64,000 nt of DNA from positions 628,864 through 692,863 of the forward strand of contig NC_049986.1 of assembly GCF_000003815.2 (NCBI RefSeq), read 5' to 3'. Shown piece after piece: positions 133 through 48,600 of the stretch. Below the pieces are notes generated by a model. The model did not search any database. It was not told the origin of the DNA and was given only the letters and a program-made list of their open reading frames with translations. Both the position numbers and the translations under genes were made by a program. Within the stretch, counting starts at the first letter, position 1. Each line of letters begins with the position of its first letter. The DNA comes from Branchiostoma floridae. Taxonomy: Eukaryota > Chordata > Leptocardii > Amphioxiformes > Branchiostomatidae.

Positions 133-3915
<3,783 letters not shown>

Positions 3916-11100: not shown

Positions 11101-14100
11101 AGTGATGGACGACTTAATTGTTCAGGTACAACCTACCAAGATCAGTGTCATTTGACTTGTGATGAAGGATATGAAGCCTATTATTGGGCAAATTTTCATT
11201 GCATGGCAGATGGAACATGGAATGGCGTTCCAACGTGTAGACCAGGTACGTAAATACACGCTAGAGGCTTTCCACTTCTCTATATGGCTCTGTGCATCTG
11301 TACTATTGCTTTATCACCATATGCCAAAGACCCTCTTTCCACGTTTTACTAATTGCTGACGTCATGTAAGTCACGTGTCCTTTGGTATGGTCATCAGAAC
11401 CTGACGAGGTCTAGAGTTATGATGGTCACCAACTCGGGTAGTTTTCTTTGTTGTGTTACAATATAGTTTAGCCACCGTTCATAATATATATACCAACGGC
11501 AAGGTTGATCTCTTACAGTGAATTGTGGACCCCCTTCGTGGTTTCCATATACCTCCATAAGCTGTGAGAATGGTTTCCGGTACCCAGGAACTTGCAACGT
11601 CACCTGTGACGTCGGGTACCAAAGAACCGCTGCAGAAAACCCGTTTTGCGAGAAGGACGCAAGGTGGCATTTCAAAAAAGCAGGAAACATGAGTGAAGGT
11701 ACATCGTCCAACATTTAAAATTTTGCAAAGCTACATCAGAAATTAGACAAAATGTGATTTAAAGCTGTTTTTAAAATTCCATAAAAGAAGTAACAATCTG
11801 TGAATATAACAATGATCCTAAAATCATATAACCTTGACGTGCATTGTTTTCAGACATGAACCACAACAGAGACCAACCTGACCTTTTTTGTGAGAGGAAA
11901 GAATGTGGCCTTCCACAGGTACGTTTTATGAGTTAACATGTATGGATATAGGAGACTTCTTTTTACACAACCAGTAGGTACTTACAAAGCTTACGTTTCG
12001 ATGTCCTTCAGACACCTTCGTTAGAGCTTCCAACTGGAGTTCTGCTTCTCACCGCTATATGTAGCCGATGTAGGTGGCGCTTTTGCGGTGAGAAAACAAT
12101 CCTAAACGTGGCTCAGCTTGTATACCCCCCCCCCCCGTATGTTTATATCTTGTAACCCTTTTAGTGAATCTTATCTACAGATAATATATTAAGCCTCACA
12201 CCATTAAAGTTCCTTATTCTTTCCTCATAGAATCTACAAAATGGTGACATCGACTGTACGGGGACAAAATTCCAAGACTACTGTCTGTTGGACTGTGACA
12301 CTGGGTATAAGAACGCCGACAACAGCTCTACAATTCTCCACTCTCTACACAGGTACACCTGCATGGCTGATGGCAACTGGAGCGAACAGCCAAGGTAGTG
12401 TTTAAGCATTTAATTCATGTTTCCTTTGCGTTAATCGAACGTGCAAAATAGTTTAATGAATGAAAGACCTTCATTGTACATTTATGCCCAAACAAGCTAA
12501 GTACAGGTCATAGCGATAAGGCACAATTTCATGTAAGAAAAGTGTTATCTTTCAGAGACAGAGACTACTATATGCCAATATGCACAGGTTCAACTTCTTC
12601 TCGCTTCTTAAGACAGTTGTAGACATAAGGGCAGATGTAATCAATGATACAGGATGTTATCTAACGTTAGTGGCATAAGGAATATGAACTTTCCTTACTA
12701 TTTTTATAACGGAAATTAAGGAACATATCTTGCATGTAATCGAAGAGGACGTTTCTTTCGTTGGTGTATAAAGTACTTGTTTTTGTTAACGGCTTCTTGT
12801 AATGTCTGGACGACAGGTGCACACCGTCCGACTACTGCCGCTTGGGACGTCATAACTGCCACGCAGAGCACGGTGTTTGTGACGTCACAGGCCATCAGAC
12901 GTACAGCTGCAGATGTAGAGGAGGAACCTTCGGGGACGGAATAAACTGTGAACGGCTGATGTGTCCGCCACTACCCGTAAGTATCTAAATGAATGAATGA
13001 AACTTTAAAAGTGTTTCTATAAAACGTAAATGCAAATGTGACTTAACTTTCACGGAAGGAAAACATATTGTTTTTACTGTTCTTCTTCTCGAAATAAGGC
13101 CAATGACCTGGACCAGAAGACTGTTAAAGTTCAGACACCCTGTGCTGTTCAATCACATAATGAAGCAAGTGGTAGGACAGGCCTGGAGGGACTGGTCATC
13201 TTATCAAGGAGGTTTCATAAGGGGACATGTTTGAGGGGACATATGATCATGAGTTTACAGGTATGATAGAAGTCTATGGCACCTTCAAAGTGTGGACATA
13301 ACTTGTTTCCTGCCACAACTAACCCTTTTTACATGTTCATGCTAGGTTGCTACACCGCCCAATGGATTCTTCACATGTGCCAGACAGGAGACTACTGGTA
13401 CACAACCAGGCTTTTGCTCCACTGCAAGCGAGACGTCGGTTGATGAGGAACAGGAGTACGAAGTGTCGTGCGTCCTGCACTGTTCCCAGGGGTTCAGACA
13501 GAACCTGTTTGTGGAGTACTGGTGCAGCAGCGACGGCAACTGGTCAATACCTCACGACTTGAACAACATTGATGATCGCATTTGTGAAGGTATAGACAAC
13601 ATATGCTAAATAGTAATTTTAAATCCAAAATGCCAGAGTATTATATAGTGTAAGCTCTGTGTTTTCTATTGATACATGTACGTACGACAGACTATAATAC
13701 GGCCGCATGGCACGTTGGATACACCCGATCCCTCGATCTCGGAAGTTAAGCAACGCGCAGTTTTTGGATAGGAGACCCCCAACCAAGGACGACCGGATTG
13801 CTGTAGCCGGACCAAGCATGGTCATTCCACGAAGTCGTCTTCCGGGAGGGAAGTAAAACGGGGGTCCCGTGCTCATGGAGGTGCCTCGACCACGTTAAAC
13901 AGCCTCATTACTCATTGGGTACCTACTATCTGGCAAAAATACAGATGATTATTATTATAATCTACCATGAGGTTATCATGCATGTGTTTGTCAAGGCACA
14001 AACACTGACACCTTCCTTGTGAGGACAATTAACAGCAAACGCAAATACAATACAAAACAGGCATTTAACGTTATACATGTAACTAATATTATACTTAACG

Positions 14101-16294
14101 ATTTTTTTTCCTTAGGGTTTCTAATCTATAATTCGTTAAGTGGTCAGTCTAAGCAGGAACTATCTTACATATTTACCATGTGAACTTATATTTATTACAG
14201 ACATAGATGAGTGTAGACACAACAACGGCGGCTGTGCCCATGGCTGTGTGAACACAGTAGGAAGCTACTACTGTACATGTAGGACTGGATATCAACTATC
14301 AGGAAAACACAACTGCATTGGTAGATATTATTTGATATCATATATTCTAACTATGTGTGATTGACATCTTATACCTGATTCCCTCATAAAATATCATATT
14401 TATCCAACCAGCAACGTTGTTTCATTCAGCACCATCTCATTCTAAAGTCTTTTGCGAGACCTGTGATACAATATTCCCTTTACAGATGTTAATGAATGCA
14501 CCCGGGGAAATGGCGGCTGTGCCCACAACTGTGTGAATACTGCAGGCAGCTACCACTGCACCTGCCGGTTAGGATACCAACTTTCTGGGACCAAAAGCTG
14601 CATTAGTGAGTTCCTAGCAGTATCTTTTGGTTGATATTGTGTTTGTTGATATTGTTTGACATCCTCAAATTATGGTTGTACTATGTAGCACAATAACAAC
14701 TATGTAGCATTGCTCTATAAGGATCTTACACATGTGTACCCATCTCCTACCTTCTACTTTTTCAAGGGGCCTGATAGAATACTGTTAGAATCATGATTCA
14801 AGTTAGTCAGACTAAAGCTATCATGGTAGCACCAGAGTTTACTTTGTCACCAAATGAAACAACTTGCTTCCTATTGCTTCTGCCAGTTCTGGCATACTTT
14901 GTGCAATAAGGAAGATGCTACCTACTTTGCATACTTAATGAATGCAAAGAGCCTTGTATCTTTTTATGATTACTATTAGACAATGCTCATTGGAATTACA
15001 GATTCACAAGCTTGAATGACACAATACCTTTTATTTCTTTCAGGAATAAGAAATTATTGTGCATCATTGTCTCTGCCAAATGGCAGGGTTTCGTGCAGCG
15101 ACCAGGCATTCTATGACTCTCAGTGTACGTTCAGGTGTAACACTGGTTATTACATGCCAGCACCTAACACCCTGCAATGCCTTGCTGATGGCACATGGAG
15201 CGCAAGGGTCCCCAGATGCGATGGTAAGTTGATTTCAGTGTTTGTATTGATAAACTGTGTTCCGTGTCTTCGTGCAATTATCCAGCTGGTGCAATAATGC
15301 GAAGTTACCTAGCTGAACCGCACCGGTTTGGGATTTGGGGATTCCGTGCAGTTAAAAGAAGTGTGCCTTAATCCGTTGTGCAATTAAATGGCTTCTACTG
15401 TAATATATATGTGTCTTTTACATCAATTGCAAAAAAACATCTGCAGTGTAGCATTACAGACATGCATGAATTCTAATTATGATGTATTCTTACTAATAAA
15501 TATTTTGTGACCAAAACATGGTTACACTGAGGATCATCTTATATATATTGTAAATCTGAAAAGGAGTATGTACTGTAATAAGTAAAATAAGACTATTATG
15601 ATGTTTAATGTCATGAAACAAATGACAGGTTCTGTTTGATCGGTCTTGTGTTATGTATTGTCTCTAAATCATTCTTTCAGTGTGTAACAGTGCAGTTGAC
15701 ATCATCATAGCAGTAGACATTACTTGGAGTGTTGCGCCTAACATGGAGCAAGTGCGGCAGCTTTTACAGAACATTGTCAACCGTCTGCCTATTGGATCTG
15801 GTACCAACCAAGCAAGGGTGGGCCTGATAAGGTTTGATTTTGGATGGTACAATGATATGTATTGGGGCATTGACCATGTGACAATCTCTTTAAGTCAGAG
15901 TATTAACAAAGCCACACTTCTAAACCAGATTAACACAATGACATCAGTCAGCATGGGCTTATCATGTGGCAATGGCGCTAGTCCAAGCAACGGAGGTCAG
16001 GTCTGTGCATTACACAGTCTGTATCACCAGTTCCGTAACAACCAGAGACCTGGAGTCAAACAGATTGCTGTCATTGTAACGGATGGTCGGGAAATAGATC
16101 CACCATCTGCCGCTATAGGCCCAGCTCAGACTTTGCGAAATTCAGGAGTAACAGTTATCTGTGTTGGCGTGGCTAGTGTTAACATGGATACCATGCGTTA
16201 CATGGCAAGTACCCCTTTTAACGACCATTATTTCCAATCCTCCATGAGCAATTTGAATGAACTTGTTGACATGCTGCATCCCAAAATCTGTTAA
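8145..16294 (+). CDS. Type II membrane Sushi/EGF/vWA protein (gene 2)
   Basis: Core exons: 8145-8236, 8373-8448, 8581-8809, 8990-9136, 9296-9775, 10021-10091, 10238-10385, 10527-10730, 10907-10962, 11095-11245, 11519-11698, 11854-11918, 12231-12394, 12817-12976, 13099-13260, 13346-13589, 14201-14320, 14486-14605, 15044-15223, 15681-16294 (TAA). Every junction is in phase; the total is 3663 nt, 1220 codons plus stop. The N-terminal part is acidic with DEYDDGYTP. Lys-rich KKKCWD precedes a hydrophobic helix ([20 protein letters not shown]), so N-in, C-out topology is inferred. Next come a Sushi-like exon fused to an unrecognised helical segment, repeating Sushi units (some split by a phase 0 intron), an EGF (12817-12976), a Sushi-like exon (13346-13589), two cbEGFs, a Sushi and a vWA with MIDAS DITWS and TDGR. 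The last four exons mirror gene 1. It could instead be two genes split near 13.6-14.2 kb, but the phase 1 match argues for one. Confidence 0.75.
13695..13910 (+). mobile_element. 5S rRNA-derived SINE
   Basis: 13698-13808 follows the 5S rRNA order: ACGGCCGCATGGCA near the start, ACACCCGATC, then 'CGATCTCGGAAGTTAAGCA' (box A region), 'TTGGATAGGAGACC' (intermediate element) and a degenerate box C before 'GCTGTAGCC'. A non-5S body follows ('AAGTAAAACGGGGGTCCC') and a tail ending in ATTATTATTATAA. Differences at many paired positions, plus the appended body, argue for a SINE and not a functional 5S gene. It lies in the 13589-14201 intron of gene 2. Confidence 0.7.
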
Positions 16295-17591: not shown

Positions 17592-20500
17592 CTATTCCAC
17601 GTTCACATTGTTGTAGATGGATGGATACTCTTGGAAGTAAGTCTGAAAGGAAACACAGGTTGTCACAACAAATACTTAATATATACTTATTATACTAGTA
17701 AGCACAACGCTGTGGCTTTATAACTTGTTGGACATTCCAATACTCCGAAGTGCAAAACCTTCTTCACACTTCATCACCCTTGAGAGGAGTTTACTCTGAG
17801 TTGCTACAGAGTACACAACAATAATTGCGTGCAAATGTACCTGCACATCCTAGCCTTTACAATGTAATGCCATGGTGCACAATAGCAGTGCAACGCAACA
17901 TGCACCTTCAGAACCTACTCTGGGGCATATACCATATTTGCCAATATGCATCCTATTATTTACTGTGTGATGTACACATGTACATGCAGAGGTGGAATGC
18001 ATTATACCGCTACTCATACTTAACACAGCACAGTGTACTCTACCTGTACAGTGTGCTACCACAGTGCACAACAGAAATGCAACAAAGCATTCTCTGCCAC
18101 ATCCTAACCATGTCGAGAGCAATACTTTGACTTGTATAACAGTTTGGCCCTTCTCATTGATTACCTACCATTTACACTGTGCAATGTCCTGGTGCACAAA
18201 AAAGGTGCAAAACAGTATGCCTTTTAAAACATACCTTATACAGAGCAATGTCATGGATCACAATACAGGGGCAAATAAGTGCACCATCTCTTTCTACCCC
18301 CTGGAGTGTAATACTCTGAGTTGCATAATACCATTTTGGCCCTTCATAGTGTGCCTTGTAAAATTAAATACCGTGGTGCACAATAGAAGTGCAATACAAC
18401 TTTTCAGAACCTTCATATGATTGTAGAGTGCACAACAGCAGTGCAACACAACTCTTTAGACCCTACCTTGTAGAGAGGAATGTCATGGTGCACATAAGCA
18501 ATGCAACACAACTCTTCATGACCTACCTTGTAGAGTGCAATACTCTGGTGCACACTGGAGGTGCAGCCCATTTCCCTGATGGAGTGCATGCTGAGTTGAG
18601 GAGCTCCGATGTCCACAGTTTTCATGCCCAGCTTGGCTGACAGAATCGGCCCTATGGTGGAGCCACAGGGACTGTCATTACGCACAACAAAGTCCTGAAA
18701 TGAGATGGAAAAGTTTCTTTTAGATATCTACCTAAAGATCCCTAAACATACTGGCCAAAACAAACCATGACATCAATCACCAAACAATTTTTGCTGTGAC
18801 AAAGAATTTCTAGGTAAGTAATCTACATGTAAGTGTTTAAGACTAGCACTGTGTTCTGAAGAAAGCTGCTACCAGTTAACCACCGTAAAATTAGAAGGAA
18901 ATTTCTGACAAAACGCATACCTTGGACACATCTATAAGTCAAAATCATCAATGATACATGTAATTAGACATTCAGATATATAGCCCATGGTATCTAAGTA
19001 ATATGTACTTACTTAATTAAGTAAGTACATTATTACCTAGCTAGTACATATTACCTGCTGTTAAAATTCACACAAGAAAGTAGGTACAGATTGGATCAGT
19101 TGAAAGGCAAAAATATTAAACTTTCTGTCACTAAAAAACACAACTTGTCAAGGTTAAGATGATCTAGGTAACTTATCCTCACCTGAAGCGGAACATTAGC
19201 CCGTGTCCCCACCTCCCTCAGGATGGACGTAGACACTGCTGTTGTGGCATACCTCTGGTTGGCATTGAACTTGATAACAATACCCTACAAGGGAATAATG
19301 GCCTCTACGTTTTGGAAGGCTGAGTATTCCTAAGAATTCATTTCTACTGCTTGTCAATTGTCATTGAAGAGCGGGTTCTAGATATTAACTGGGGATAGCA
19401 CTGGGGGTATGGAGAATTAGAATCTTTTACATTCTTTGAATGGTTAGAAAAGAAAATATCACTTAACTATGACTCATAATGGATTGTAGCATATGCATTC
19501 TAAATTCTACACACTTTCAATGAGTGCCAGGTATCCATGATCTTTTGCTACCTGGTACTTTTTTCATACGTATTCACACATGATGCTTGTGTCCTATGTG
19601 TATCTATTAGATTCATCTTACCTTGTGTAACATGGGCCTGTGGTTGTCTTCATGCTTCTCTCTGTAAAAGGCAATATTCCCATTCCATGATTGTTATTTT
19701 GAAAGCACCAAGTACACTATTTGAATAGGGAAATTTCAAGACAATGCAGTTACATGTATCAGCAGGATATCGAATTGGTGTCCTGTAGAACTTGAAACTT
19801 ACGAGTAGTTAGGATGGACCGCATGTGCCTGGTCAGCACTGAGGAGGAAAGATTTGGGGATGGCCTCCTCGAAGCAGGTGGCACGGTCCCCTACAGACAA
19901 CCTCCGCAGGATGTGTTCGGTCAGCATGGAAGCCGCTCCCTGGGCGGACTCCGAGCCTACCTAGGGTTAAACAACAAGAAGTGGTACTCAATGCCATCAC
20001 AGTAGGAGCATCCTCATAGATAGCTTTGAACAACATTTGCAGTCAGATGTGCAATGGTTACGTAAGACGGGTAGCTCAATGTGATATGACCTGAGCTGCT
20101 GATGCGCCACGTGCCTGCATAGCTGGTATGTTATGCCAAAAGGCAGTTATATCGGCTATATATTGTAGACACAGATACAGAAACATATTAAATATATTGA
20201 TATTAAACCTTCAGTGATCTAAGTCATCAATGCAGTTCTGTATAGAGTGCTACAAGTTAAAATCCATATGTCACTTCTCATATGCACATTTTGTAATCAT
20301 GTTAATCAACATGTACTATAACTTTATTGTTCTGATGATAACAAAGCAAATCTCTGTAACTTGTATGTTTTATATTACCTAATTGCCATATCTACAAATG
20401 AGAACTAAATCACAATGATTTCTACTTCTGGTACTGAGAAACCGACAATTTAGTTTGTTACCTCCTCATTGTCATAGAGTGCGATGAGCCTTATGTTAGG

Positions 20501-23500
20501 GTCAGATGTCAATGACCCATTGTCACCACTGGACTCCACCAGTCCCTGGGGAATACACACATGTTACAACACAAGTTACTATACAACCATGAAGACTGTA
20601 CTGTTACAGGAATTCAATAATGGAGAAAAGTTTTCTAAAACTGATGGAAGTCAGGGTAAGAAAACAGTTTGGACAGCAGGTGATACCATTTTCAGCACCA
20701 AGGACAGGGTAAAAATAGAAAATGAAATATTTCTTTTTACATGGTACTTACAAATGTAAAGGGTAGAGTGAATATTTCTTAAGTCTAAAAATCATCTCTA
20801 CCTTACCTGTAAGGCACAGTAGCTGCTGAGAAGGTTGTCCAGTCTTGGCGAGAACAGGAATTCTTCCAGAGCACCACCGATGGTCTGGAATCAAAAGAAA
20901 GAAAAAACACTTTCAACACAAGAAAGCATACATCGCTGATAATTTTTTTACAGCATAATACTGAATCAATAACCATCTTTTTACCAACAAATCTTAAGAG
21001 CTTGTAGGTTATATAAGATTAAGTTTAACATTTGGTTATGAAAAGTTAATATTGATATCAATAACTCACAGCAGGCTGAGTGTCGGCCAGACACAGCTCA
21101 AAGTCCAGCAGGTCCTGTGGCTGGATCCCCAGTTCCTTACACAGGAGGGTCACCAGGACTGGGGGGTGCTTGTCAGCCTGACATAAATGAGAAACATTTT
21201 ATCATACAGTCAAATAGGTGAAAAATCATTAGGTGGCAAGGTGGTTTGGCAGTAAGGCCACAGCAAGTAAATTTTATGGATGACATCCTCTGCAGACTGC
21301 AAAAATAGTGCGATAGGGCGAAAAAAAACAAGATGGGTGAAAAGAAACAAGATGGCTACATTTTCAAAAATAGGCACCATAAAGTTGTTGTGAATGTGTT
21401 AACAAGAATTAAGGAGACAAAACATGGTATCAGAGCCAACAAGGCATTCATTCCTGTATTTAAGACATGTACTGGTGTGGTAAAAGTGACACTAGTGTGG
21501 TAGACTGGCATCACCAGCAAAGTTGGTAACCTCACTCATGGCTTCCATACTGGTGTCAATTTTACAACTATCCGATAAGTTTCATTTCTACAACTACACT
21601 CCTGGGTACGTCGCAAGTGTCACTTTTACAAATACAATTATTAGGCTACAACACAACATATTTGCTCATTTTGGTACTTTATCGTCATGTTGACCACCCC
21701 TGCAGAAGAAAAAAATTCTTGTTTTTTTTCTGAAATTAGGCGAAAATTAATGCGCGCGCTGATGTCATCCATAAAATTTACTTGCTGTGGCCTAAGAGAT
21801 GTTGACCTAGAATCTAAGTAAAGGTTCTAGGTTTGAACCCCTTACAGGCCCCAGGGTTGTTCCCTTGGGAAAGCCACTTAGCACCTATTTCCTTGTAACT
21901 CAAATTAGGGATAAGTACCTAAATTTGGTTAGGGATGTCCTCTTTCATGATTGGAAGGGATCTAAAGCTGTGGCCCCATGTTTGGGAGGGGTCATACATC
22001 GAGCATGCTAAAGAACCTACCACACTTATTAAAGAGAGTTCATCCTGGTGTGAGTTGAGCAAATTATTTTATTACAGTCTGGTCTTGCACTAGCCTGGGT
22101 ACCATCCGGATAGTAGTTCGCTCCTACGTTCGCTTCTGCTATCCGTCTGGAGATGTGCGCATTCAAACCGTTTGGTGGTAATGTCAGTTAATGAGCGAAT
22201 CTATGAATAGGTTCTAGAGCGCTTGTTCGATGACAAGAGGTCTCCCACGAGCGGGCGGAGGGCTTGTCCTGTGTTGGAATGTCTGTTCGAACGAGCGCTT
22301 GAATCCATTCCATATTTTGCTCATGTGTAGGGACCAATCAGCGCCTGCTTCCAAAATTTGGACGATTCCAGACGTTAAGATGGTCCGCGTTCCCAGACGG
22401 AAGCACAGAGAAGCGACTGTATATAGTGTATAATGAATGTCAGAGCTAGAAGCGACAGTATATAGTATATAATGAACGCCAGAGCGAACTACTTTCCGGA
22501 TGGTACCCAGCTAGTCTTGCACAGCTTGTACTTACTAGACTACTGTACAAAACTAGTGTCTTATGTCGAAAGGCTGTTTCACAGTTATGGGAGAGAAACA
22601 AGCACTAGTCTTGCAAAAATCTGTCACAGTGCCTACTTCTAAAAATCTCTGGCAATGAAACGATAAATGTATTTGTTGGCACACTACTAAAGGAATCAAA
22701 AGCTTAGTTTTCTTCACAGATTTGACATTGAAGGGGATATGGGTGACATTTAGTGATTTACATGAACTCTCACCTGGCATTTTGGTTCCTCCCCCTCCTT
22801 TGCAGAAGTGTACCCTTCCAACTGGGCCTGTACTGCTGTAGACAGGACAGGTACACTAACAAACAAGGGGGTTACAAGAATATAAATGTTACTAAAAGTC
22901 TGAGACTAGCAGAATATCACATATCTATTCCAGATCAGAAGTCTGGAATACACTACTGCACACTAGAAGAGATAGTGGTCTAGAAATATCTTAAATCCAC
23001 ATTTACAGTACTGGTATATTTAAAGCTACACAATCTTTAAGCATAAACATGTTCCTCACATGTTCGTCTCTTTATTTGGGCCAAACTTGTCGTTGTGGTC
23101 CCTCATCAGGTGGATGGCGATGTTTGGCACACGTAGGATCGGGCGGTCGATACGAACCAACCGGTGCTCGATCTTGTCTGCATTCTGGGGGAAAACAGAA
23201 AAGCCTCAATAAAGATTCCACCTTTGATTCCATATGCTTTTTACAACACTCTTTGAAGAGCACAATGCTGCTGAAATAAGATCTATACCTGTATTGCATG
23301 ACAAAACATAATCTTGCAATTCTTTAAACAAAGATTACCAATCTTCAATACATTACTAGTAGGAACAGGGCTCGAAATTCATTTTTGGGATTAGGTGCAC
23401 TGGTGCACCCAGCTTAACAAATTGGGTGCACCAAAAATTTTGGGTGCACCACTTAAATTTACATGTAAGTACGTAATAACCTAATAATAAAACTTATAAT

Positions 23501-28720: not shown

Positions 28721-29518
28721 ATTTCCAACCTAGACTGAGAGTGACCGGCGAAAGGGTTGGCACTCAAAGGACGTCACCTAGCGGTATGTGCCAGAATTTC
28801 AGACAAAACCAGAGCAATTCGATTCATGTATAGAAGAACTTTATTGCACGACAATTGTACATGGTACAAAGTATGGCAACAACTATTACATAAAGTACAA
28901 AATAGATGTATAACGTTAGGATAAAGCTTTACATCATAGGCTAATATGCATAATTCATTCATATAGTATCATAATGAAGTAGGCTAATCATTAGCTTCAG
29001 TATTCTTTCTAATAGCAAAGCAGTCCTTGATATATTTGCCTATTTTTGCATTATGGGAGTTCTGACATCTAAATAAATGTGCAAATCTGTCTGTAGCATC
29101 GAGTCTTTTGAAATATGTTGTACTTGCTTCGAGAAACGAAAAAGGCAATCATCTATCCTACCTAAAAATAATAGTATAGCAATACTGTGTCCCATTTTGG
29201 AAGATCTAGACAATCATATTTTCGCTAGTACTGATGGGAATGCCCCACATTGCATAAAACGCAGCAAACAAAGAAAATATCCTCACTCCACTCTTCTGTC
29301 CAGTTTTGTTTTGTTTCCTGCTGAGATTGTTCTGTAGCTACTCATTCATGTTCTCCAGACAGCAGCACACAATCTTTGCTATCTAAACTGTGACTTAACG
29401 TTACCTCCTGAAATAGTACTCAAAGCTTACAGGGTAGAAAATGTAGGAGTAGCACTAATAGGAGGACCGTTGACTGATGCGATCAGTTTGACACTACAAG
29501 AAACAGCAGGTGGCAGTG
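28721..29518. promoter_or_regulatory. Divergent promoter region, DNPEP / NHL gene
   Basis: About 800 bp separate the two outward-facing start codons. No TATA box or other decisive element was picked out. It should hold both 5' UTRs and promoters. Confidence 0.4.
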
Positions 29519-32500
29519 ATGGATGGAAGTAGTCAGACAGTCGATCCGGACGGATTCTACTCAACAACATCAGGTACCTATGAGGATGCGCAACCGGTAG
29601 TGGTAAGATATACCCCCTCTACTCATACAGTCAGTACAGGAACAACAGCCGCTCCAGAAGACGTCTTCTCAACGCCATCAGATGTTTATGAAGAAGCACA
29701 GGTAGTGTACTATCCAAGTAAAGTTTCCACCAGCAAAGCAATCACTCTAAGAACAGAAACAACGGCTGCTCAAGAAGACGCTTATTCGACAACATCGGGT
29801 GTTTATGAAGATGCCAATCCGGTTCAGGTAGGTGACGTTCCCGCCGGCAAAACAATCACTCTAAGAACACAAACCACAGCGACCGCTCTAGAAAACGTCT
29901 ACTCAACGTCATCAGGTATTTATGAAGAAGGTGAACCAGTGCAGCAAAGAAACCTGCTCTCTGGTCAGTCAGTTAAAGCAGAAATAGCAGCCGCGGCTTC
30001 ACAGGACGTCTACTCGACACCGTCAGGTATTTATGAAGAAGCACAATCCGTGCAGCCAAGTAACATTCCAACCAACCAAAATATCACTCTGAGAACAGAA
30101 GCAGTGACCGCTCGGGAAGATGTCTACTCAACACCATCAGATGCGTACGAAGAGCCAGAACTGGTAGTGATGCGTGATGTTGTCCCTGGCCAGGCTGTCC
30201 GAGGTGGAACTTCCGTGACTGGACAAAACCGAAATATGGGGCAAGCAGCTGATCGCAGCGGTTCCTCAGCTGGTAAGTAAAACTGTTGATCATAAATTCG
30301 AAGAATAACCATCATTCTGCAAATTGATATCTTGAATTTTTCATGGACCCAAGTTGCTTTCAATGTGGATTAGTAAAATACCCTTTGCTATTTTTATCTA
30401 ATGCTCATCAATAATCATGATGAGTTATTAGCGATATCATATCTTGACTTTCTCGCGCTCGATCATCAGGTCTAAAACATTAGAAAAAGATATAAAAAAT
30501 TGAGGTTCTGCTGCAGTACCTTAGCAAGCCGCTAGGGGGCCATTATCGAACTTGACCTTCATTTTTCCGACCCCTACCCACCTACCAAATATTAGTGGGA
30601 TCCATCTAAGGCTTCTCGAGTTATGCTGTTAACACACACACACACACACACACAGACAGACTCACAAGCCCAAAATATAACCTTAGCCATTCTGGCAAAA
30701 GTAATTAAAACATTTCTCTTCTCAGACCGTTCAGATGAGGAGCCAGCTCGTCGCGACCGAATCCGCCCTTTCCTCTCCCACCGTAAGGGTGTTTGCTTTG
30801 TCATAACGGCGTGCGTTAACTTTGCTGTGGCAGCCATGTTGTTTGGCATCTTCATCGGTAAGACCACAGAAACACGTCACTTCGACCCCCCGTACCCTGT
30901 AACACTGCAGGGAAATATTCAGGTACGTGGACTTTAAAAGATCCGATAGCATAAGTAATAGAAGATGGGTGTGGCTTGATTATGTGAAATAGGGGTTGCC
31001 CCACCCACAAGGGGGGTTCCTTTAACACCCTAGGCGAAGCAGAAAAAAGTGTCGAATTATCCAAAAAGTGTTGTACTATCCAAAAAGTGTGGTACTATTT
31101 TATGCAAATTTTACATAGTACCACACTTTTTGGATAGTACAACACTTTTTCTGTACTACGTGGATATAATCACAGTAATTGAAGGGCTCCCATTGGCTGA
31201 GGGGTAGTGGCCATGTTCTAACATTGGATATCTTTCCAAATGCTTCAATGTAGAAGACATAGCTGCATCATATCAATGCATAGATGTATAAACATTACTC
31301 TCAAAGCAGAGGTTGAGTCGCGTAGATATAGTAGTAGTCGGAAAAATTACACCGGCGCTCTACTATATCTACGCGACTCAAGCTCTGCTTGGAGATTATA
31401 AAGCATGCCATTGGTCTGTTTTGTATCAAGGGTTATGAGACAAATTAAAACAACATTGGCTTATAACGTAACATTCAGTTCAGCTAAGATAAGTTTACAC
31501 AGTAATACAAGATTTTGGTTCATGCCCGGATAATTCAAGACATAAGCCATGAGGAACAAGATATTTGCTGTATACGTTTGTAAGAAGATTCATTTATTTA
31601 TCATTCGTATCTTTGGAAAATGACAGCTAGGAGACCGATTTCGACTTTATTCGTCTTTTTCAAGAATCAAGATTAATTTAGGGACTGTACGATATTTATC
31701 AGGGGGGGAGGGCTGGTGCGTTAGGGGGGGAGGGCCATGTTAATTTTTTTTGAGGTGGGGGGAGGGCCATGTTAATTTTTTTTTAGATAGGGGGGAGGGC
31801 CATGTTAATTTTTTTGAAAGAATTGTTTATACTCTTTTTGTTTTGATATCTTGACATGGCCCTAAAACTGATAGAATAAGCCTTCTGAATAGCCTAAAAT
31901 GCAAGAGCTTCCGGGGGGCTTTGCCCCCCTAGGCCCCCCCAAAGTGGCGCTGCCCTGGACTAGTGTTCCCGCCAGGCATACGTCATTCCGTCTACAGACT
32001 TATTTTTTTCTGGAAAGACGCACTCAGCTCGGCTGAGTTTCCCCAAATTTTTAAGTTACAAAAGCGGTGCACGGTAAATATGTGAAGAATCCAAAACTAT
32101 ACACTTTATTTTTTATTTAAAACATTTCTTTTGTTTCAAAAAGACAAAATTTGCGGCAGAAAAAGGGGCCGCAATATTGTTGTCAAGTGTCGATCGAGTC
32201 GGCTGTGCACTGGCATTGGCGTCCGTAGCACATGGCGCGGCACGCCCCCCTCCCCAGACGGACTGTCGATCGCAGCGCCGGGGCCGGGCAGCACGTCTTT
32301 TCTGGCTACTCTTTCAAGACTACACCGGCACTGATCACTTCCAAAGATGCAGCAGATCGCCCTCCTTTGTATAATGTATAACGTTCTTCGTTACTCTACT
32401 CTATGTAAAAAGAAATCCATCGGTGAGCCAAAGATTTCACGCCGAAAACGGGGTTACCTGAGGTCGCACGAAACAAACGCACGCTCGTGGAAAATGACGT

Positions 32501-35500
32501 CGCGGCCTTGTAAAACCCGACCGATTCGATAAATGATAAATTTTAGTAAAATCATCGGGCAAAAAAAAACACAAGGTGTGATGGCACCGTTTATTCTATC
32601 CTCTGGAAAAACTACTAGCATTTGATGCGGGAGGGCGCAACATCGATCGCACGAGGTAGGCATTCTTTTAATATTCAATGCCGGAAAAAAATTGGCAGGC
32701 TTTTTCCATGGGCTGACGAACTCACTGGCTAGAGCCCTGTTTGGAAGCATCAAAACCCCAAAATTTTCATATAGACATGACTGGACAAATAATACCCGGG
32801 CCAGATCACGGACTGCTGATTCCCCGAGCTTATAGTTATAACGTATTTTTGGGGAGAGGGCGGACGTCGATTACTGAAAAACGGGAGTAAAAAAAGGCAA
32901 CCGGCATCCAATCTCAAGGGCATAATTTTCCTCTCAAGTTGCAGGAAATTCTGTTTTAGAGGGTTTGAAAATCCAAATTTTCCCGGGGGAGCATGCCCCC
33001 GGACCCCTGCCCCGACGCTGTGATAAAATCCTGGCGAGAACACTGGCGCCCTTGTGCCCTGACGTCTATATTAAGATTATTTTATCGGTTGTTTTTCTAC
33101 CTGTTTAATGATGCCTGTCGGGGGGAGGGTCATGTTGATTTTTTTTTAGGTGGAGGGGGAGGGTCACGTTAAATTTTTTTGAGATGGGGGGGAGGGCCAT
33201 CAAAATATTTTTTGATCCGACTTCCAATGCACCAGCCCTCCCCCCCGATAAATATCGTACGGTCCCTTATTTAATCACATTGTCTAGACGTTTGATTTGT
33301 TCGGAATGAAAGTTTAATGAATACATGAATTATTTTACATAAAGATAATCTGCTCCCCTGCTTTTCGGCCGACAACCGTGCTCACAACCCACTCTCGATC
33401 CGAATGATCGGCTCCGATGAATATACAGAGATATGGCAGCCCCAGTTTAGTCTCTACCAGACTCCGAGTCGCTGGAGAAAATCGTAGAAATGGTACAAAT
33501 AGAGGAGTATGCCGGCCAGAGGAATATAGCCGGCTAGGCAACAGTATCGCGAGCTGTTCCCTGGCCGGTTATATTCCTCTCTATTTGTTCCATTTCTACG
33601 ATTTTCCAGCGATCCGGAGTCTGGTAGAGACTAGCCCCTGTTAGTGTGACCTGGTTTACATATAATATATAGAAGCATAAAGGAACATAGGGACGACTGA
33701 TTTCCATGATATTTAGCATGCAGGTATCTTTCGCAGAGATGTACATATTGATGTGCAAATTATGCAAAATTTGGACTTGAGTTGCATACTTAATGAGGAA
33801 ATTCTATATTTACAGTGTTTTCCATTATAGGACTGAAACCCACATCTAACACGTGTAGTTTGTGGCAGGTGGAAGATTGGTAGATACCAGTTATGCAAAT
33901 AAATCCCTAATCTGCATAAATAATGTGAAAGTGTTATGAATATTCAAGTACAAGTACATTGTCACCCGTGTAAGTTAGTTCAAATTGTACATAGCTAGGT
34001 ATAAATTATGCAGATGTGTAATTCATTTGCATAATCAGAATATTTCATGGAGGTATGAAAACTACGAACTCTTGTTTCTCCAGGCATCGTTAACGTTATC
34101 CAGCCAGTTCAGTACCAGCGACAAGACCAGAGGTGTGGTCCCTACAACACGTGCATACAAGGCTACATATACATCCGGCACAGCTGATGGTAAATATACT
34201 AAAGTGTTACAGCGTGCTAATGCAAACCCTAACTTCACATCATTTCAATGCATTGTATATATATATATATATATGATAAACCAGAATAAACATTTTCAAT
34301 GTGATCATCAACAAAATGGTAACCTAGCTGAGCAAGTAAAAAAAACAAAGAAAATTGTACATTTAAACTTCATTGTGAGCATTTTTCCCATTCTCTAAAA
34401 GCTCAAATTTAAAGTTGAGTAGTTTTGCAACTTCTTAACGTGTGGCCGCGGGATGGTATTGCAGATTAGGCTCTAAAGGGATACGTAGTTCCGGGGTGCA
34501 TCAAAAAGCTTCCTAGCTCAGCATTGCACTGTGTATTAAGAACTTTCCGGCATTTCAAAGTAAGGCAATGCTGATTTGATTATATGGATTACATCATCTG
34601 GGAATCTAAAAACTGGTGCGAGCGTGCGAATAAAAAAGGTCGATTTACAGTATGGTTGAAAACTTAAAATAATAATAAATTAAAAAATAATAGACACTAC
34701 CGGAAATATTTACAGCCCCACATGTAATATGTAACACGGTAAGAAAACTACATCCACATGTTCATTGAGTGTAACCGGCTGCAAGGGTACTGGGAAAGTA
34801 TTAAGGAACGAATCTCTGTTTTAGTTATGGATATAGGCATAGAATCTATATTACTTGGTGATGTTTCAAATCTGTACATAACTCTAGCAAAGTATGCAAT
34901 ATTTCTGTCATGGTCTAGATATAAAGATAATCCTTTGTTACTTCAAAGACATGTCCTACAGTTATACAATGCACTATGTGATTCCGTAATTCCAGTCAAT
35001 ATATAGGTCATAGCAATATATATGTATTAATGATATTTGTGTATTATTAATGATGACATTATGATATTGTCTCACATGTACGGCATCTTGTACACTTGAT
35101 TACTGCTGATGGAATAAAAGTAATGGGAAAAAAATTGAAAAAAGTTGAAAACTTTTTTGGAAACCACCTCAAATTGATGTCATCCATATAATCAAATCAA
35201 CATGGTCCAAGGGTTGAATGATATCAAATCATGACAACGTTTGTTTGTTGCTGCAGATACTACTAGCGAAGAAGGTAGCCGACAAAGCGTCACTTTTGGC
35301 GGGAGAGGTTCAGGACTAGGACAATTCACTCGTCCTACTGGAGTCGTCGTTTCCTCTAAAAATGAGATATTTGTGACTGATAAAGACAACCATCGGGTAC
35401 AAGTATTCAGCATGAAAGGTGCTTACCTTCGTCATTTCCAAACCAGTGTGTCGGGAATGACAGGTAAAATGCTGTTACCAGAAGATATCGCCATAGACGG

Positions 35501-36071
35501 CAACGACAACTTGTGGGTGGTGGGGACTTCGGTTTTTGTTGGTGACATTGTTGTAAAGTATAGCAGTTACGGTCAAGGCTTGTCAACGTTTGAAATCCCG
35601 CGCGACAGATTCTTCGGTGGAATCGCCGTGGACCGTCGGAATGGCCACGTTATTGTGACAAGACGGGCCAGTGACAAGGTGCTGATATTTCAGCCGGACG
35701 GCTCGCTGATCGGAGTGTTTGGCCAGAAATGGGCAGTTTCATCGACCGTCGCCGTCAACATAGATGGGAACATTCTGATGTTAATGAACGGCTTTGTACA
35801 CGTGTATAACGAGACAGGACAGTTCCTGTTCAGTTTTGCCGGCCCAGGAGGTGGCCACATGAACGGACACATCTGTACGGACAGCTCCGGCCACGTTCTC
35901 GTAGCGGATCGCCAGCACAAGCGGGTGTCGATGTTTACAAGCAGCGGGCAGTTCGTTCGCCACGTGGTCACCGGACTGAAGATGGTCAAGTTTGTTGCCG
36001 TGGGCAGAGAAGGACAGCTAGTGGTGATTGATATCGGTGATAGAACCGTTACTGTCTACCCCAGTTACTGA
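29519..36071 (+). CDS. Type II membrane NHL-repeat protein with tyrosine-rich cytoplasmic repeats
   Basis: Exons 29519-30272, 30726-30922, 34084-34189, 35257-36071 (stop TGA) join in phase to 623 aa. ATG 29519 was chosen as the first in-frame ATG. Residues about 10-250 hold six degenerate repeats with the core (Y/F)-S-T-x-S-(G/D)-x-Y-E-(E/D). Arg/Lys-rich RRDRIRPFLSHRKG then precedes a TM helix (VCFVITACVNFAVAAMLFGI), so the N terminus is predicted cytoplasmic. After a Ser/Thr-rich linker, the last exon encodes six NHL blades ('PTGVVVSSKNEIFVTDKDNH', 'GGIAVDRRNGHVIVT', ...), a full beta-propeller placed outside the cell. Exon 2 could also end at 30857 (GTAAGA), but that frame stops early in exon 3. 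Ligand unknown. Confidence 0.8.
30631..30660. repeat. (CA)n microsatellite
   Basis: About 11 CA units followed by GACAGAC, in the first intron of the NHL gene, 65 bp before exon 2. Confidence 0.85.
31063..31150. repeat. Perfect hairpin, 35-bp arms
   Basis: Left arm 31063-31097 and right arm 31116-31150 are exact reverse complements around an 18-nt AT-rich loop. Each arm contains two AAAAAGTGT(T/G)GTACTA units. Confidence 0.85.
31309..31394. mobile_element. Short palindromic MITE
   Basis: Arms CTCTCAAAGCAGAGGTTGAG... and ...CTCAAGCTCTGCTTGGAGAT face each other with 'TCGCGTAGATATAGTAG' on both sides. Flanks TATAAACAT and TATAAAGCAT are near-duplicates. Confidence 0.6.
31681..33266. mobile_element. 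1.6-kb TIR element with TTA duplication
   Basis: Starts GGGACTGTACGATATTTATC and ends GATAAATATCGTACGGTCCC, with TTA on both flanks (31678-31680, 33267-33269). Sub-terminal G-runs ('GGGGGGAGGGCCATGTTAAT') repeat near both ends. No transposase frame was recognised. Harbinger-like on TSD size only. Confidence 0.7.
33437..33638. mobile_element. 202-bp palindromic MITE
   Basis: Two arms of about 95 bp: 'AGTCTCTACCAGACTCCG' ... 'AATCGTAGAAATGG' and the reverse complement at the other end, meeting at 'GGCAACAGTATCGCGAGC'. No protein. Confidence 0.7.
34564..35208. mobile_element. TIR element (GCTGATTTGATTATATGGAT ends)
   Basis: Left CTGATTTGATTATATGGATTACATC; right GATGTCATCCATATAATCAAATCAACATG in reverse complement. 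It is the same end family as 43341-43710. It encloses a LINE-like coding fragment. Confidence 0.55.
34748..35006 (+). pseudogene. LINE reverse-transcriptase C-terminal fragment
   Basis: Reads 'HMFIECNRLQGYWESIKE', later 'ILLGDVSN' and 'LAKYAIFLSWSRYKDNP'. This resembles the zinc-binding tail after non-LTR reverse transcriptases (H-x4-C, then W; a lone LLGD; and a final lysine/aromatic 'AKY' helix). There is no RT core in the window, so this is a dead fragment. Confidence 0.5.
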
Positions 36072-36773: not shown

Positions 36774-39700
36774 TTAAGAGCAAATGTCTGTAAGGATCAA
36801 ACAATGGTGGCAGGGGTCAAAAAATAGATTTGGCTCATATTTTGCACAGTGATAGTATTTGGTCCACAACCCCTCAAAATAGCTTTCTTTTAGATCAAAA
36901 CTCCTTGTTGCCATGGTAACGGGCAAACAAAGTTTTCTGGCCAATTTCCCCAATTTTCGCATCCCAAAAACACAGAAATCAGCATATTTTACGGCACTGT
37001 CTCGGCAACACCTTTAAACCTATCATCCAAACAAAACAAGATCTAAATAGACCAACATTTTGGCTTTATGAAAATTGTTGTGAAATTTCCAAAGACGTAC
37101 ATTTTAGTTCTTGGGCAGCCTGAAAACAATGCGATGTTTCAAGCTTCAATAGAATCTGATTTTTGGCTTAACTTTGTAACGCTATAAGTGCCGCTCTGGT
37201 ACTTTTTTCGGCTTGAAATTTGTACCATATATAGATCATTAGAATATCTATCAAATGCATTGTTGCAAAGTTTGGTAACTTGTTTGGTTGTCACGTGACT
37301 GTCCCTTAAAGTAGGCCACTTTTTGTGTTTGTTGAAAATTGTGAACTTTAGCCATGTTCAAAGTACGCTACATGACGAAGTAAAATATATTTCTACATCA
37401 ACTTCTTATCAAAGGTGGATCTATGTATTGCCTATCAAATAAATGCTTGTAGAGTTTCGGGTCATGACGTTCAGTTACGTGGTTGTCCCTGAAAGTAGGC
37501 CATTTTTTTGCATTTGACGAAAATTGTGAATTTTAGCCATGTTCAAAGTACGCTACGTGACAAAGTAAACAAGAATTCTTATTCAACTTCTAGTCAAATG
37601 TACATCTATGTATTGTTTATCAAATGAATGCTTGTAGCGTTTCGAGTCATGACGTAAAGTCACGTAGTTGTCCCTGAAAGTAGGCCATTTTTTTAGCCAT
37701 GTTCAACGTACGCTACATTACGAAGCAAAATAAAATTCTGATTTAACTTCCTGTCAAAGGTAAATCTATGTACTTCCTATCAAAGGAATACTTGTAGACA
37801 ATTAGATCATGAAGTAAAGTCACGTGGTTGTCCTTGAAAGTAGGCCACTTTTTTCATCGGACGAAAATTGTGAATTTTCAAAGTACGCTACGTGTACCCT
37901 GGTATTATAGTTCCCGAGTCTCTTTTGACCTCTTCGCAGATACATATTTCACTCGCGATCGTTCTCATTGAAATGTTAAAATGGCCTTATTGACTACATC
38001 ATTAAGGTATAAGAGGATGTCCCTAGGGACACTTAAAAAGTGGACAGCTTTTTTACACCAGGTCAAATAGAAAGCATGGAAAGCATCCAACAATTGTAAC
38101 GTTTGTTACAGTCATTTCTGTACAACATTTTGTGAGCAAGGTGGGATACAAATGGCAGTCAACAACCCTTCCTTGTTACTTTAGAAAGCCAGAAAAACTG
38201 TGCAGTGTCACAAAAACGGTCATTTCTTGTCTTATGCGTGGGTAATATAACCGTGGCAACCATCAAACTGGTGGTGGTAACGTTTGTTACCGAATTTGGC
38301 AACAGGAATAACCCAGCTCACACAGCCTCCAAGATCAGTGACAGTAGCGATCTGGCGTGTTCGGGCAAAGGGCCTGCTCAGCTGGTCTCACCTACTGAAC
38401 AATCATTCTGGGAACTGAATTGTTACATTTTTGGCTACTATTTGAATTCTTCGTGTTCTCAGGCGACAGCCATTTTTTTAGGGGGTGAAATTCCACTAAG
38501 ATAATCTTCCAAGCCATCAACCAAAATGAATCTTTTGTAAAACATTCCACCGATTGTGGAAAAATGAAGGAACCTGTGATTTTGTCTAAAAAATTTAAAT
38601 AAGAACGAGCCATTTGCGAGGAGGACAGAAGAGAATCGGGAGCCATAATATGGCTGGATACCAGGCTACGCTACGTGACGAAATTAAGAAGAATTCTGAT
38701 TGAACTTCTGGTCAAATGTACATCTTTGTATTCTTTAATTTTCTTTCTTCGAATAAATGCTTGTAGAGCTTCGGGTCATGATATTTAGTAACATGGTTAT
38801 TCCTGAAGCCAGGTCACTTTTTGTGCTCGACAAAAATTGTGAATTTTAGCCATGTTCAATGTACACTACGTGACAAAGTAAATTAGGATTCTAACTCAAC
38901 TCCTTCTTAAGGTTAGCATTGTTGCCTATCAACTAGATGCTTGTAGAGTTTTTGGGAGTGACGTTTAGTCCCAGGAAGTCTCTTAAAGCAGACCATATTT
39001 AGACATGGTGTATCAACATTGTGAATGTTGATACACAATGAACTTTTGTTCCCGTGTTAGTGTTCCTTTTGATACGCATTATAGAACATCTTAATTGCTT
39101 TATTACAAATTGATATTTACAATTATAACAGAGCCATTGCTTAAGTAATCTTTAATTTAACACTGTAAGCCCATTATCAGTCATCGTAGTACCAATATGA
39201 TATGCATTGGACATTGACAATGTTAAAGGAAAGAAACTGTTCAAGAGGCATCTTCTCCAAAGTAACAGAACCTCCTAACAGCATTTAGCTAACTATCTGC
39301 CCTACTTTAGGGAGCAGCTGCACCACAAAGAAAGACGGCCCCAAGTCTTACTAACACTCATTCAACAGACAATGTTAAGGGCTTCACATAATCAGAATCA
39401 GTGCCAGTAAAGTATTTCAGTTCCACAATTCGACGGATTTAACTACAGCCCTAAATGGCGATTTCTGGCCAAAAGCAAAATTTGACCTACATTCAGGGAC
39501 AACCACGTGACTAAACGTTATGACCCGAAACTCTGCAAGCATTCATCTGATAGACAATACCTAGATGTACATTTGACTTGAAGTTGAATAAGAATTCTTG
39601 TTCACTTTGACACCTAGCGTAGACCAAGGCTAAAATTCACAATTTTTGTCAAATGCAAAAAATGGCCTACTTTTAGGGACAACCACGTAACTAAACGTCA

Positions 39701-40575
39701 TGATCCGAAACTTTGCAAGCATTCATTTGATAGACAACACATAGATGTACACTTGACTAGAAGTTGAATAAGAATCCTTGTAGGCTTCGTCACGCAGCGT
39801 ACATTAAACATGGCTAAAATTCACAATTTTCGTCAAATGCAAAAAATGGCCTACTTTCAGGGACAACCACGTGACTGAACGTCATGACCCGAAACTCTAC
39901 AAGCATTTATTTAATAGGCAATACATAGATCCACCTTTGATAAGAAGTTGATGTAGAAATATTATTCTACTTCGTCACGTAGCGTACTTTGAACATGGCT
40001 AAAGTTCACAATTTTCACCAAACACAAAAAGTGGCCTACTTTAAGAGACAGTCACGTGATAACCAAACAAGTTACCAAACTTTGCAACAATGCATTTGAT
40101 AGATATTCTAATGATCTATATATGGTACAAATTTCAAGCCGAAAGAAGTACCAGAGCGGCACTTATAGCGTTACAAAGTTGGGCCAAAAATCAGATTTTT
40201 TTGAAGCTTGAAACATTGCATTGTTTTCAGGCTGCCCAAGAACTAAAATGTACGTCTTTGGAAATTTCACAACAATTTTTATAAAGCCAAAATGTTGGTC
40301 TATTTAGATCTTGTTTTGTTTGGATGATAGGTTTAAAGGTGTTGCCGAGACAGTGCTGTAAAATATGCTGATTTTTGTGTTTTTGAGCTGCGAAAGTTGG
40401 GGAAATTGGCCAGAAAACTTTGTTTGCCCGTTACCATGGCAACAAGGAGTTTTGATCTAAAAGAAAGCTATTTTGAGGGGTTGTGGACCGAGTACTATCA
40501 CTGTGCAAAATATGAGCCAAATCTATTTTTGACCCCTGCCACCAGTGTTTGATCCTTACAGACATTTGCTCTTAA
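36774..40575. mobile_element. 3.8-kb foldback-like inverted repeat, TTAA-bounded
   Basis: Left end TTAAGAGCAAATGTCTGTAA and right end TTACAGACATTTGCTCTTAA are exact complements. The arms extend for more than 1 kb, with several tandem units of about 180 bp inside each arm ('GTCATGACGTTCAGTTACGTGG', 'TAGCCATGTTCAAAGTACGC'), oriented oppositely in the two arms. Short open frames such as 'FDLKESYFEGLWTKYYHCAK' appear in the arms but do not form a long protein. Tandem repeats within long terminal inverted repeats are the hallmark of foldback elements. Confidence 0.75.
37895..38668. mobile_element. 774-bp TAGCCTGG-family element nested in the foldback repeat
   Basis: Starts TACCCTGGTATTATAG and ends GGCTGGATACCAGGCTA; sub-terminal 'TTCCCGAGTCTCTT' matches 'AAGAGAATCGGGAG'. 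Flanked by CGCTACGTG on both sides (37886-37894, 38669-38677). No recognised protein. Confidence 0.8.
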
Positions 40576-45600: not shown

Positions 45601-48600
45601 CCTGGGGGGAAAAGATGACTTGTGTTACATAATCACAACAGACATAATTGTAGCATATACCACACTGAATGTTTTTGTCACTAGCAGCATGAGCAAATTA
45701 AAAACAATGGAACGTTTTGTCATGGGCACTAGTTAGAATGTTGTGATATAACAGAGAGCTTGTATGAGAAAACAATTACGAATTATCAACTTCATGGCCT
45801 AGTCTACTAGTTAAGCAAACGAAAAGCGTCTTAAACTACAGTTTGCAGGCCAAACAAAAAGAAAAGTAGTCTTACATCGTCTCATCTCCTCTAAGTGTGC
45901 CGACTTGCATGACCTCTTCCCCTGTCTCACAACGCCACGTGGTGCACTTTCCTGGAGAACAAAGATGACAATCAACATGTCGGTATACTTCGGTTGACTT
46001 ATATTTACGTTCTTCATATTGCTACGACAAGAAAACAACATGATATGATTCATGCAACATTTTTGTGATAAACATGGGTAAACCTGATTACCATGGCACG
46101 TTCGACCAATTACTGACGTCACACATCGATAAGATCACGTATCTCGCGGGTTTACGATCTAAGATTATTGGTCATCAGTACTGGTCATTGAAAATTTGAT
46201 CAGTGTATACCTTTCTGTTGGAAGACAGTTTAGCATTGTACTATATTGGTAAACCAGGTTTTATGTCGTATGTATAAAACTTCATCAAAATCAGTTACTT
46301 GTATCATTCAGTTAACCGCTTATAAGTGACGTGAATTGTTTAATTTGTTTTGCCTTACCGTAGCAGAACCGCCCAGCCGGTGCCCCGAAGGCGTAGCTCA
46401 TGTCCACAGTCCCTTCGTTACACACGCACTCAAACGATCCCAGGGTGTTCCTACACGTGGCTTGTGGGTGGCAGTCACTGAGATGGCCTTTCTGTTTCGA
46501 GCACTCGTTTTCATCTGGAACAACAAATGAACAACAAATAAACAGTTGTATAATTAGTTGTAAAGTTTAGAAAAGTTAGTCATGAACTTGTCAAATTGTT
46601 AGACTTTGTCAATACAGCACGTCGACTAGGGCGTTTGTAGTTTTCCCCTTAATTTGTGTTGGAAAAACATATCATCACACATCATGGTGAACCATGTCAC
46701 AGTACTGGTCGTACAATCTAGGATGATTCGACGTTTTCTGTTTTGCTGAATACGTACCTGTAACCTCCATGGTGTCCCTGTTTAGGTTGGAAACCGCACG
46801 GTTGGCGGCAGAATCTTGCAAGGCCTGCTCCAAACGGTTGGGTGTAAGTTCAGAACTCTGCCTGTATTGAAACACATCAAAAAGCAACCCTCTTTATTTC
46901 GACTCATTTAGAAATATCTGAATCTCCGTCAGAAAACATAATCCAGATGTTGAGTTGTAATAAGAACGTCTAGAACCCCATATATACCTGTAGTGTACGA
47001 GTGCCTTGGCGATGGTAGCCCTGGGCATCCCTCCCGAGTAAGACACTGACGACATGGCCAGGAAATTGGCATCCAGTGCCCGCACATCTCCGTTATTGTG
47101 AAGCTGAGAGACCTGCAATATAATCGACAACAAAGACACATCAGGAACAGTCGCATCCATAAAGGGTTAGCAAACCCGCACGATTCCTTCTGCTGAAGGA
47201 ACCGTTTTGGCCCACCCTCAAGTCTTGCTGATGGTACAACTATTGTTTCTCAAGGACACATATGCGTTTGACTCCTGAGACAGACATAAGTTCAAATTCG
47301 TCTCAAGTTGGCTGTCCATGCCTTTTTTTGGCTCCGTTCATTAACTTGAGTTCTTTGTATGATTTATCATCCCTATGTTTGATTTCTGCTACTTAATATT
47401 CGCATTGTGGATGCGTGATTCGTTAACTTTATTCATCAAGTGATATTTTTGGTATCCCGATTTTTTAAATGATTTCGTTTAGGGCTTCATTCGAAATGAG
47501 TGACGAAGTTAACTGAAGAATTTATGAACGAAAATGAATAACTATCAGACGTATAGAAACACACCAAAGAGTCTTATTACCGTATTGGTGAATTCCTCTG
47601 TGGTCCTCTGGTAGTGCTCGGAGTGGGGGTCGTTCAGACTGGCCATGTGTTCACCCGGCATCAACACGTACAGGTGGAACGTGATGGCTTCTACAGGGGA
47701 CAGGAACAAAAAAACAGTAATAAAGATGAGGATTTCGCTTGAGACGTGTAACGTTAGATACAACTGCGGTGTACATGTTGATCCAGTCAATTATCGTAGT
47801 ATTGACTGGCTATGAAACGGTACTCAAAAACTAAGTGTACCGAAGGAAATGAGGCAAGCTCTGGACAAGTTGTATCAGTTATATATCAGTACCAATAAAT
47901 ACTATTGTTATGTCCTTACTTTTTACTTTAAGTTTAATTTTGACACTAAATGATTATGTGTTCAATGTTTAATGATTAACTTCAAGGGAAACTCTATCTT
48001 TTCATCTATCTATTCACTTGGTTGTCTATGTTTATGTTTATATTTACAGAGGCTTTCGGTTGTTTTGGCTATGGTTATTATATTTCAGCCATACATAGTA
48101 TGGTGAAATATATTGTGTTCGTAATGTTTCTTCTTTCTTCTTTCTCCTGTCAAATCTCCAAAGTGATTCATCTCCGCCGTTCCTGGACCGAATGACCTGA
48201 AATTTGGCACAGGGGTAGAATGGGCCAATACCTTGATGCTTTTTTCTCAGTTTTTTCATATCTGCCTCTAAAATGATTTTATTGAGATTTTTTGGTCAAT
48301 TTTAGACCAAAACTGTATATTTTGGCCCCTGTACCCTGGTATTACAACCAAATGAGCTGAAATTTGACAGAGATGTGCCTTGATAATGCCCCCATATAAA
48401 TTCGATAACACTTTTGGTGTACAGTACAACAAAATGCTTATTTTTGCGATTTTTTGACCAATTTTTGACCAAAAAAGGACACTTTTGGCCCCTGTACCTT
48501 GGGTATTACAACCAAATGAGCTGAAATTTGAGAGATGTGCCTTGATAATGCCCCCATATAAATTCAATAACACTTTTGGTGTACAGTACAACAAAATGCT

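Follow-up and report, generated by a model that had tools for sequence, protein, structure and literature searches.

DNPEP and its surroundings in the window

The stretch of Branchiostoma floridae DNA analysed here (64 kb, referred to below as the window) carries on its minus strand the gene for DNPEP, an M18 aminopeptidase, of which 12 exon segments were recovered from 28464 down to 17595. The segments were set by homology and by splice signals read by eye, without RNA. The exon at 18694–18527 matches human DNPEP (4dyo) over all of its 56 residues (E 2.3e-20) and the Pfam family Peptidase_M18 (PF02127) over residues 2–56 (E 2e-23). It was called exon 14 in the original prediction; the boundary exon was located as described, its number being provisional, as the penultimate of the 12 recovered segments. 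The end of the gene is made up as follows.

18527–18694, minus strand: penultimate recovered DNPEP exon, 168 nt, 56 codons; holds the MHSIRE motif; the final 28 nt form the exonic portion of repeat unit 1
17643–18526, minus strand: intron of 884 nt, GTAGGT...TTTCAG; the repeat array extends over its first 687 nt
17595–17642, minus strand: last coding exon, 16 residues, with the stop codon next to it at 17594–17592

Several open reading frames of the plus strand lie around the gene. Two von Willebrand factor A domains (PF00092) are encoded at 3298–3915 (E 9.6e-24) and 15668–16294 (E 8e-24); the two frames are about 12 kb apart, look alike by eye and are probably duplicates. A frame with NHL repeats (PF01436, E 1.3e-17) occupies 35235–36071. 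The 262-residue frame at 29492–30280 contains repeated segments with motifs resembling YST(P/T)S-x-x-YE(E/D), as judged by eye, and produced no match in Pfam at E 0.01. At 13697–13799, also on the plus strand, a sequence resembling 5S rRNA (Rfam RF00001, 41 bits, gathering threshold 38) has about 150 nt and then an ATT-rich tail behind it, and looks like a 5S-derived SINE or a pseudogene; BflSINE1, a DeuSINE of B. floridae, is given as tRNA-derived (PMC3747384).

The window also contains other tandem repeats. A nearly identical 39-nt unit is present in two copies at each of two places 28 kb apart, 22409–22485 (in a DNPEP intron) and 50309–50385, which are perhaps parts of one transposable element. 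The arrays at 37290–37854 and 39470–40059 have units of about 160–185 nt whose consensus sequences, compared by eye, look reverse-complementary. A 162-nt unit is repeated 3.6 times with 91% matches at 48270–48853, and two long minus-strand open frames (48268–48726 and 48506–49054) overlap this array.

A tandem array that starts in the exon

The original prediction placed a tandem array at 17829–18553 in the intron that follows the penultimate exon, with a unit that includes the exon end and the splice donor, and both points are borne out. A profile (nhmmer) built from the first two units finds 11 units between 18554 and 17840, namely the true boundary and ten copies of it, and the first unit consists of the exon tail, the donor and the start of the intron. 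The exon end is indeed copied, over 28 nt (18554–18527) rather than the 27 nt originally given. The parts of the array that matter for the argument are the following.

17840–18554, minus strand: array of 11 units with starts about 61 nt apart (limits set by hand), except for about 124 nt from unit 9 to unit 10
18495–18554, minus strand: unit 1, 28 nt of exon end and AAG/GTAGGT, first intron base 18526; 32 nt of intron in all
18435–18494, minus strand: unit 2, copied exon end and AAG/GTAGGG, first intron base 18466
18413–18415, minus strand: in-frame TGA in the third unit, which terminates read-through past the second donor
18206–18262, minus strand: unit 6, donor-like AAG/GTATGT, first intron base 18234; not in frame, and downstream of the TGA
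18157–18198, minus strand: unit 7, donor-like ATG/GTAGGT, first intron base 18168; downstream of the TGA

Most of the array is degenerate. Tandem Repeats Finder reports a 60-nt array of only 2.1 copies (18428–18554), the rest being degenerate. When the boundary is compared with the window by BLAST, a stretch of 67 nt matches with 80.6% identity one unit further on, and there are weaker matches deeper in the same intron. Units 9 and 10 are separated by about 100 nt without any match. The array is well beyond chance. Downstream of unit 2 (18433–17643) the profile has nine matches of at least 7 bits; 300 dinucleotide shuffles of the same segment average 0.003 and never exceed one. Cyclic alignment of 17642–18420 to a single unit scores 46, and the best of 40 shuffles scores 25. 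Units 1 and 2 are the most similar pair: of their 60 sites 47 are identical, made up of 22 of the 28 in the exonic part and 25 of the 32 in the intronic part. Most other units are far less alike.

The repeat is private to this boundary as far as the searches extend. All 11 units are confined to the DNPEP boundary and intron and to the minus strand, and the rest of the 64 kb window contains no unit match of at least 7 bits on either strand. A search of the source genome (513,431,437 bases in 431 contigs) with 301 bases of the array, which skips very common words, gave a single scored candidate and this place alone. A dispersed repeat or a satellite was rejected on the absence of window matches of at least 7 bits and on the single genomic place, within a search that skips very common words. 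When 11 inferred donors and nine acceptors of DNPEP (some acceptors placed by eye) were screened with blastn at E 0.05 or less, repeats were found beside the array donor alone. At two further donors and an acceptor there was one match each (14, 14 and 27 nt, E 0.042).

Tandem arrays misassemble easily, and one lancelet mirage, as the exon/intron boundary duplications of lancelet genes have been named, was seemingly misassembled in the draft genome (PMC3087553). If the array were misassembled, or were an unrelated dispersed repeat with a chance end at the exon, it would still be necessary to account for the single match in the genome search, the lack of matches of at least 7 bits elsewhere in the window and an exon tail that is homologous coding sequence. 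Furthermore, the units are not duplicated reads, because 13 of the 60 sites are different even in the best pair, formed by units 1 and 2. Such an origin is therefore highly improbable. Expansion of an array into the exon from outside is likewise disfavoured, as the exon tail aligns with human DNPEP up to the final codon of the exon. From this alignment it follows that the tail is ancestral coding sequence and that the copies would derive from the exon and its donor.

Copied donors and the reading frame

Donor strength was estimated for every GT in the exon and intron (97 sites) with a donor matrix. The best four of these 97 sites are 18526 (5.81), 18466 (5.20), 18234 (4.97) and 18168 (3.81), all of them at the homologous donor position, in units 1, 2, 6 and 7. 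The predicted energies of pairing with the 5′ end of U1 are −9.8, −9.7, −6.3 and −8.3 kcal/mol, respectively; by U1 pairing alone, 18043 (−8.0), 17840 (−7.1) and 18164 (−6.5) would rank above 18234. Seven of the ten copies are without any site that scores at least 3.8, such that a good donor is kept in three: unit 2 and two of the nine later copies. A scan of 264 kb (the window and 200 kb that start 7 kb beyond it; a small sample that gives no genome-wide rate) found 25 arrays with periods of 25–250, among which the DNPEP array is the one with two in-register donors scoring at least 4.9.

Use of the second donor had been predicted to add exactly 60 nt, or 20 codons with no stop, and translation bears this out, 18526 being the true donor. 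The GTATG donor-like site expected near 18235 is present as well, with its first intron base at 18234. Reading through from the exon, the frame stays open across unit 2 and ends at the TGA at 18415–18413. Splicing at 18234 would add 292 nt out of frame and with a premature stop. The proposal that growth of the array creates in-frame splice variants accordingly holds for the unit 2 donor and is otherwise overstated: only one of the ten copies can give such a variant, because the TGA terminates any longer read-through. For that one copy an in-frame consequence is possible, and a large effect is unlikely. The insertion would also lie near the MHSIRE zinc-ligand region rather than next to it, 19 residues after the His of MHSIRE and, as counted on the sequence, 16 residues before the C-terminus.

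These predictions make 18466 a plausible competitor of 18526. The arrangement resembles competing tandem 5′ splice sites, with two donors 60 nt apart, in frame and of near-equal predicted U1 pairing, and differs from them in that the second DNPEP donor is a candidate known from sequence. Of two equal donors, the one closer to the acceptor is often favoured; given the near-equal U1 pairing and the nearer acceptor, substantial use of 18466 is possible. In its strong form this reading takes 18466 as a genuine alternative 5′ splice site that produces an isoform with 20 additional residues, which may vary with the length of the array on different alleles. It is favoured by a stop-free, in-frame segment, by a donor score (5.20) above those of seven of the 11 DNPEP donors inferred from homology and second among the 97 GT sites on the donor matrix, and by a U1 pairing of −9.7 kcal/mol that falls just short of the −9.8 kcal/mol at 18526.

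The divergence of the copies argues against this reading. Compared with the exon, the ten copies are identical at 56/88, 60/88 and 53/88 sites of codon positions 1, 2 and 3, so that no codon-position bias is seen among them, and the exonic and intronic parts of unit 2 have diverged from unit 1 about equally. Coding constraint on the added segment is therefore not indicated, in what is a weak test on ten copies from one genome. By part, identity over the ten copies is 179/274 in the exonic portion, 45/60 at the donor and 131/242 in the intronic portion, with unit limits set by hand from the profile result and a forced alignment; the higher exonic and donor values may reflect alignment anchoring or some constraint. 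As a whole, the pattern fits copies that are untranslated and decaying.

Published accounts point in the same direction, describing arrays of this kind as neutral for splicing on limited RNA evidence (PMC3087553; PMC3902484). In the accessible text of these reports, Adh3 data and RT-PCR of globins suggest that regular splicing is undisturbed (PMC3087553), and the Adh and troponin C arrays are said to yield no aberrant mRNAs, a statement extended by analogy to PGBD5 (PMC3902484), for which cDNA support covers only the N-terminal 83–86 residues (PMC3902484). It was also pointed out that copied splice signals could act as cryptic sites in the globin mirages, and that such signals are absent from some of the globin repeats (PMC3087553). 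A genuine alternative site at 18466 is thus rather unlikely, with the reservation that this reading overlaps the preferred one, a decaying and normally spliced array, which itself permits minor use of 18466.

The spare donors could instead have a role of their own, the array serving as a splicing decoy or buffer in which they recruit U1 and help to define the upstream exon, or save splicing when the true donor is damaged. Sites that score at least 3.8 are indeed dense, with three in the 676 nt of the array that were scanned against five in ten further introns of the gene (8,517 nt, with approximate bounds), and only 1.9% of 1,234 overlapping 676-nt windows, taken on both strands, reach three. 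At a threshold of 4.9 or more there are two array sites and four in the other introns, and 2.4% of such windows reach the array count. At 6.5 or more, however, the array has none and the other introns have two in 8,517 nt. This density follows from the copying of a unit that contains a donor, and since only three of the ten copies keep a good one there is no sign of upkeep. A decoy or buffer function is accordingly very unlikely.

Relation to lancelet mirages

Mirages have been described in lancelet globin genes, with Adh3 cited as a further case (PMC3087553), and in PGBD5, in a report that also cites globins, Adh and troponin C (PMC3902484). The published units measure 150–160 and 157 bp in the globins BflGb6 and BflGb9 (PMC3087553), 60 and 108 bp in PGBD5 (PMC3902484) and 10–72 bp in Adh3 (PMC3087553; PMC3902484), and 5′ as well as 3′ boundaries can be duplicated (PMC3087553; PMC3902484). 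Repeat number can vary, the haplotypes of BflGb6 having six and three units (PMC3087553). No earlier description of the DNPEP boundary array was found within the literature library searched.

The DNPEP array shares with mirages a tandem unit that spans the exon/intron boundary (unit 1, then ten copies), copies that carry splice signals within the intron (units 2, 6 and 7) and a unit length of about 60 nt, which falls in the published size range. Imperfect units are likewise a feature of the PGBD5 mirage (PMC3902484). The differences are that DNPEP is a new gene in this context and that most of its copies, in an array that accounts for 687 of the 884 intron nt, are strongly degenerate; the units of BflGb6 are 81–100% identical (PMC3087553), in contrast to 47 of 60 sites in the best DNPEP pair. 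Tandem duplication over an intron/exon boundary, with the splice signals carried along, also features in the model proposed for the globins (PMC3087553), whereas in DNPEP no new intron is seen and a single intron has apparently grown from its donor side.

The array is thus most probably an old, decayed lancelet mirage, that is, a boundary-spanning minisatellite, which would be spliced normally and in which minor use of 18466 is possible. A segment of about 60 nt, comprising the end of the conserved exon, its donor site and the first part of the intron, would have been duplicated and then reduplicated, with growth presumably by unequal exchange or replication slippage. Such growth would have extended the intron, starting at the 5′ edge and leaving the true boundary as the outermost unit, probably held there by selection on the protein. 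The intronic copies would meanwhile decay, a good donor surviving in unit 2 and in two of the nine later ones. Splicing would then occur nearly always at 18526, with at most minor leakage to 18466 and its 20 added residues. A more far-reaching variant, in which the unit 2 donor is measurably used and the length and decay of the array tune a DNPEP isoform with 20 additional residues between alleles, is improbable.

This interpretation would add a gene for a conserved enzyme to the short list of lancelet genes known to have an exon edge copied into one of their introns, at what appears to be an old and decayed stage of the mirage process. Such arrays are also a warning to gene predictors: a JGI model took repeat copies in PGBD5 for an exon, and the authors of the PGBD5 report omitted it (PMC3902484). 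Many lancelet gene models have been reported to be wrong in a study whose accessible text does not mention boundary repeats (PMC4967905). Two similar in-frame donors 60 nt apart offer a clean natural test of how the spliceosome handles a copied donor. If 18466 is in fact used, the minisatellite would act at the exon edge as a source of in-frame protein variants that changes with array length.
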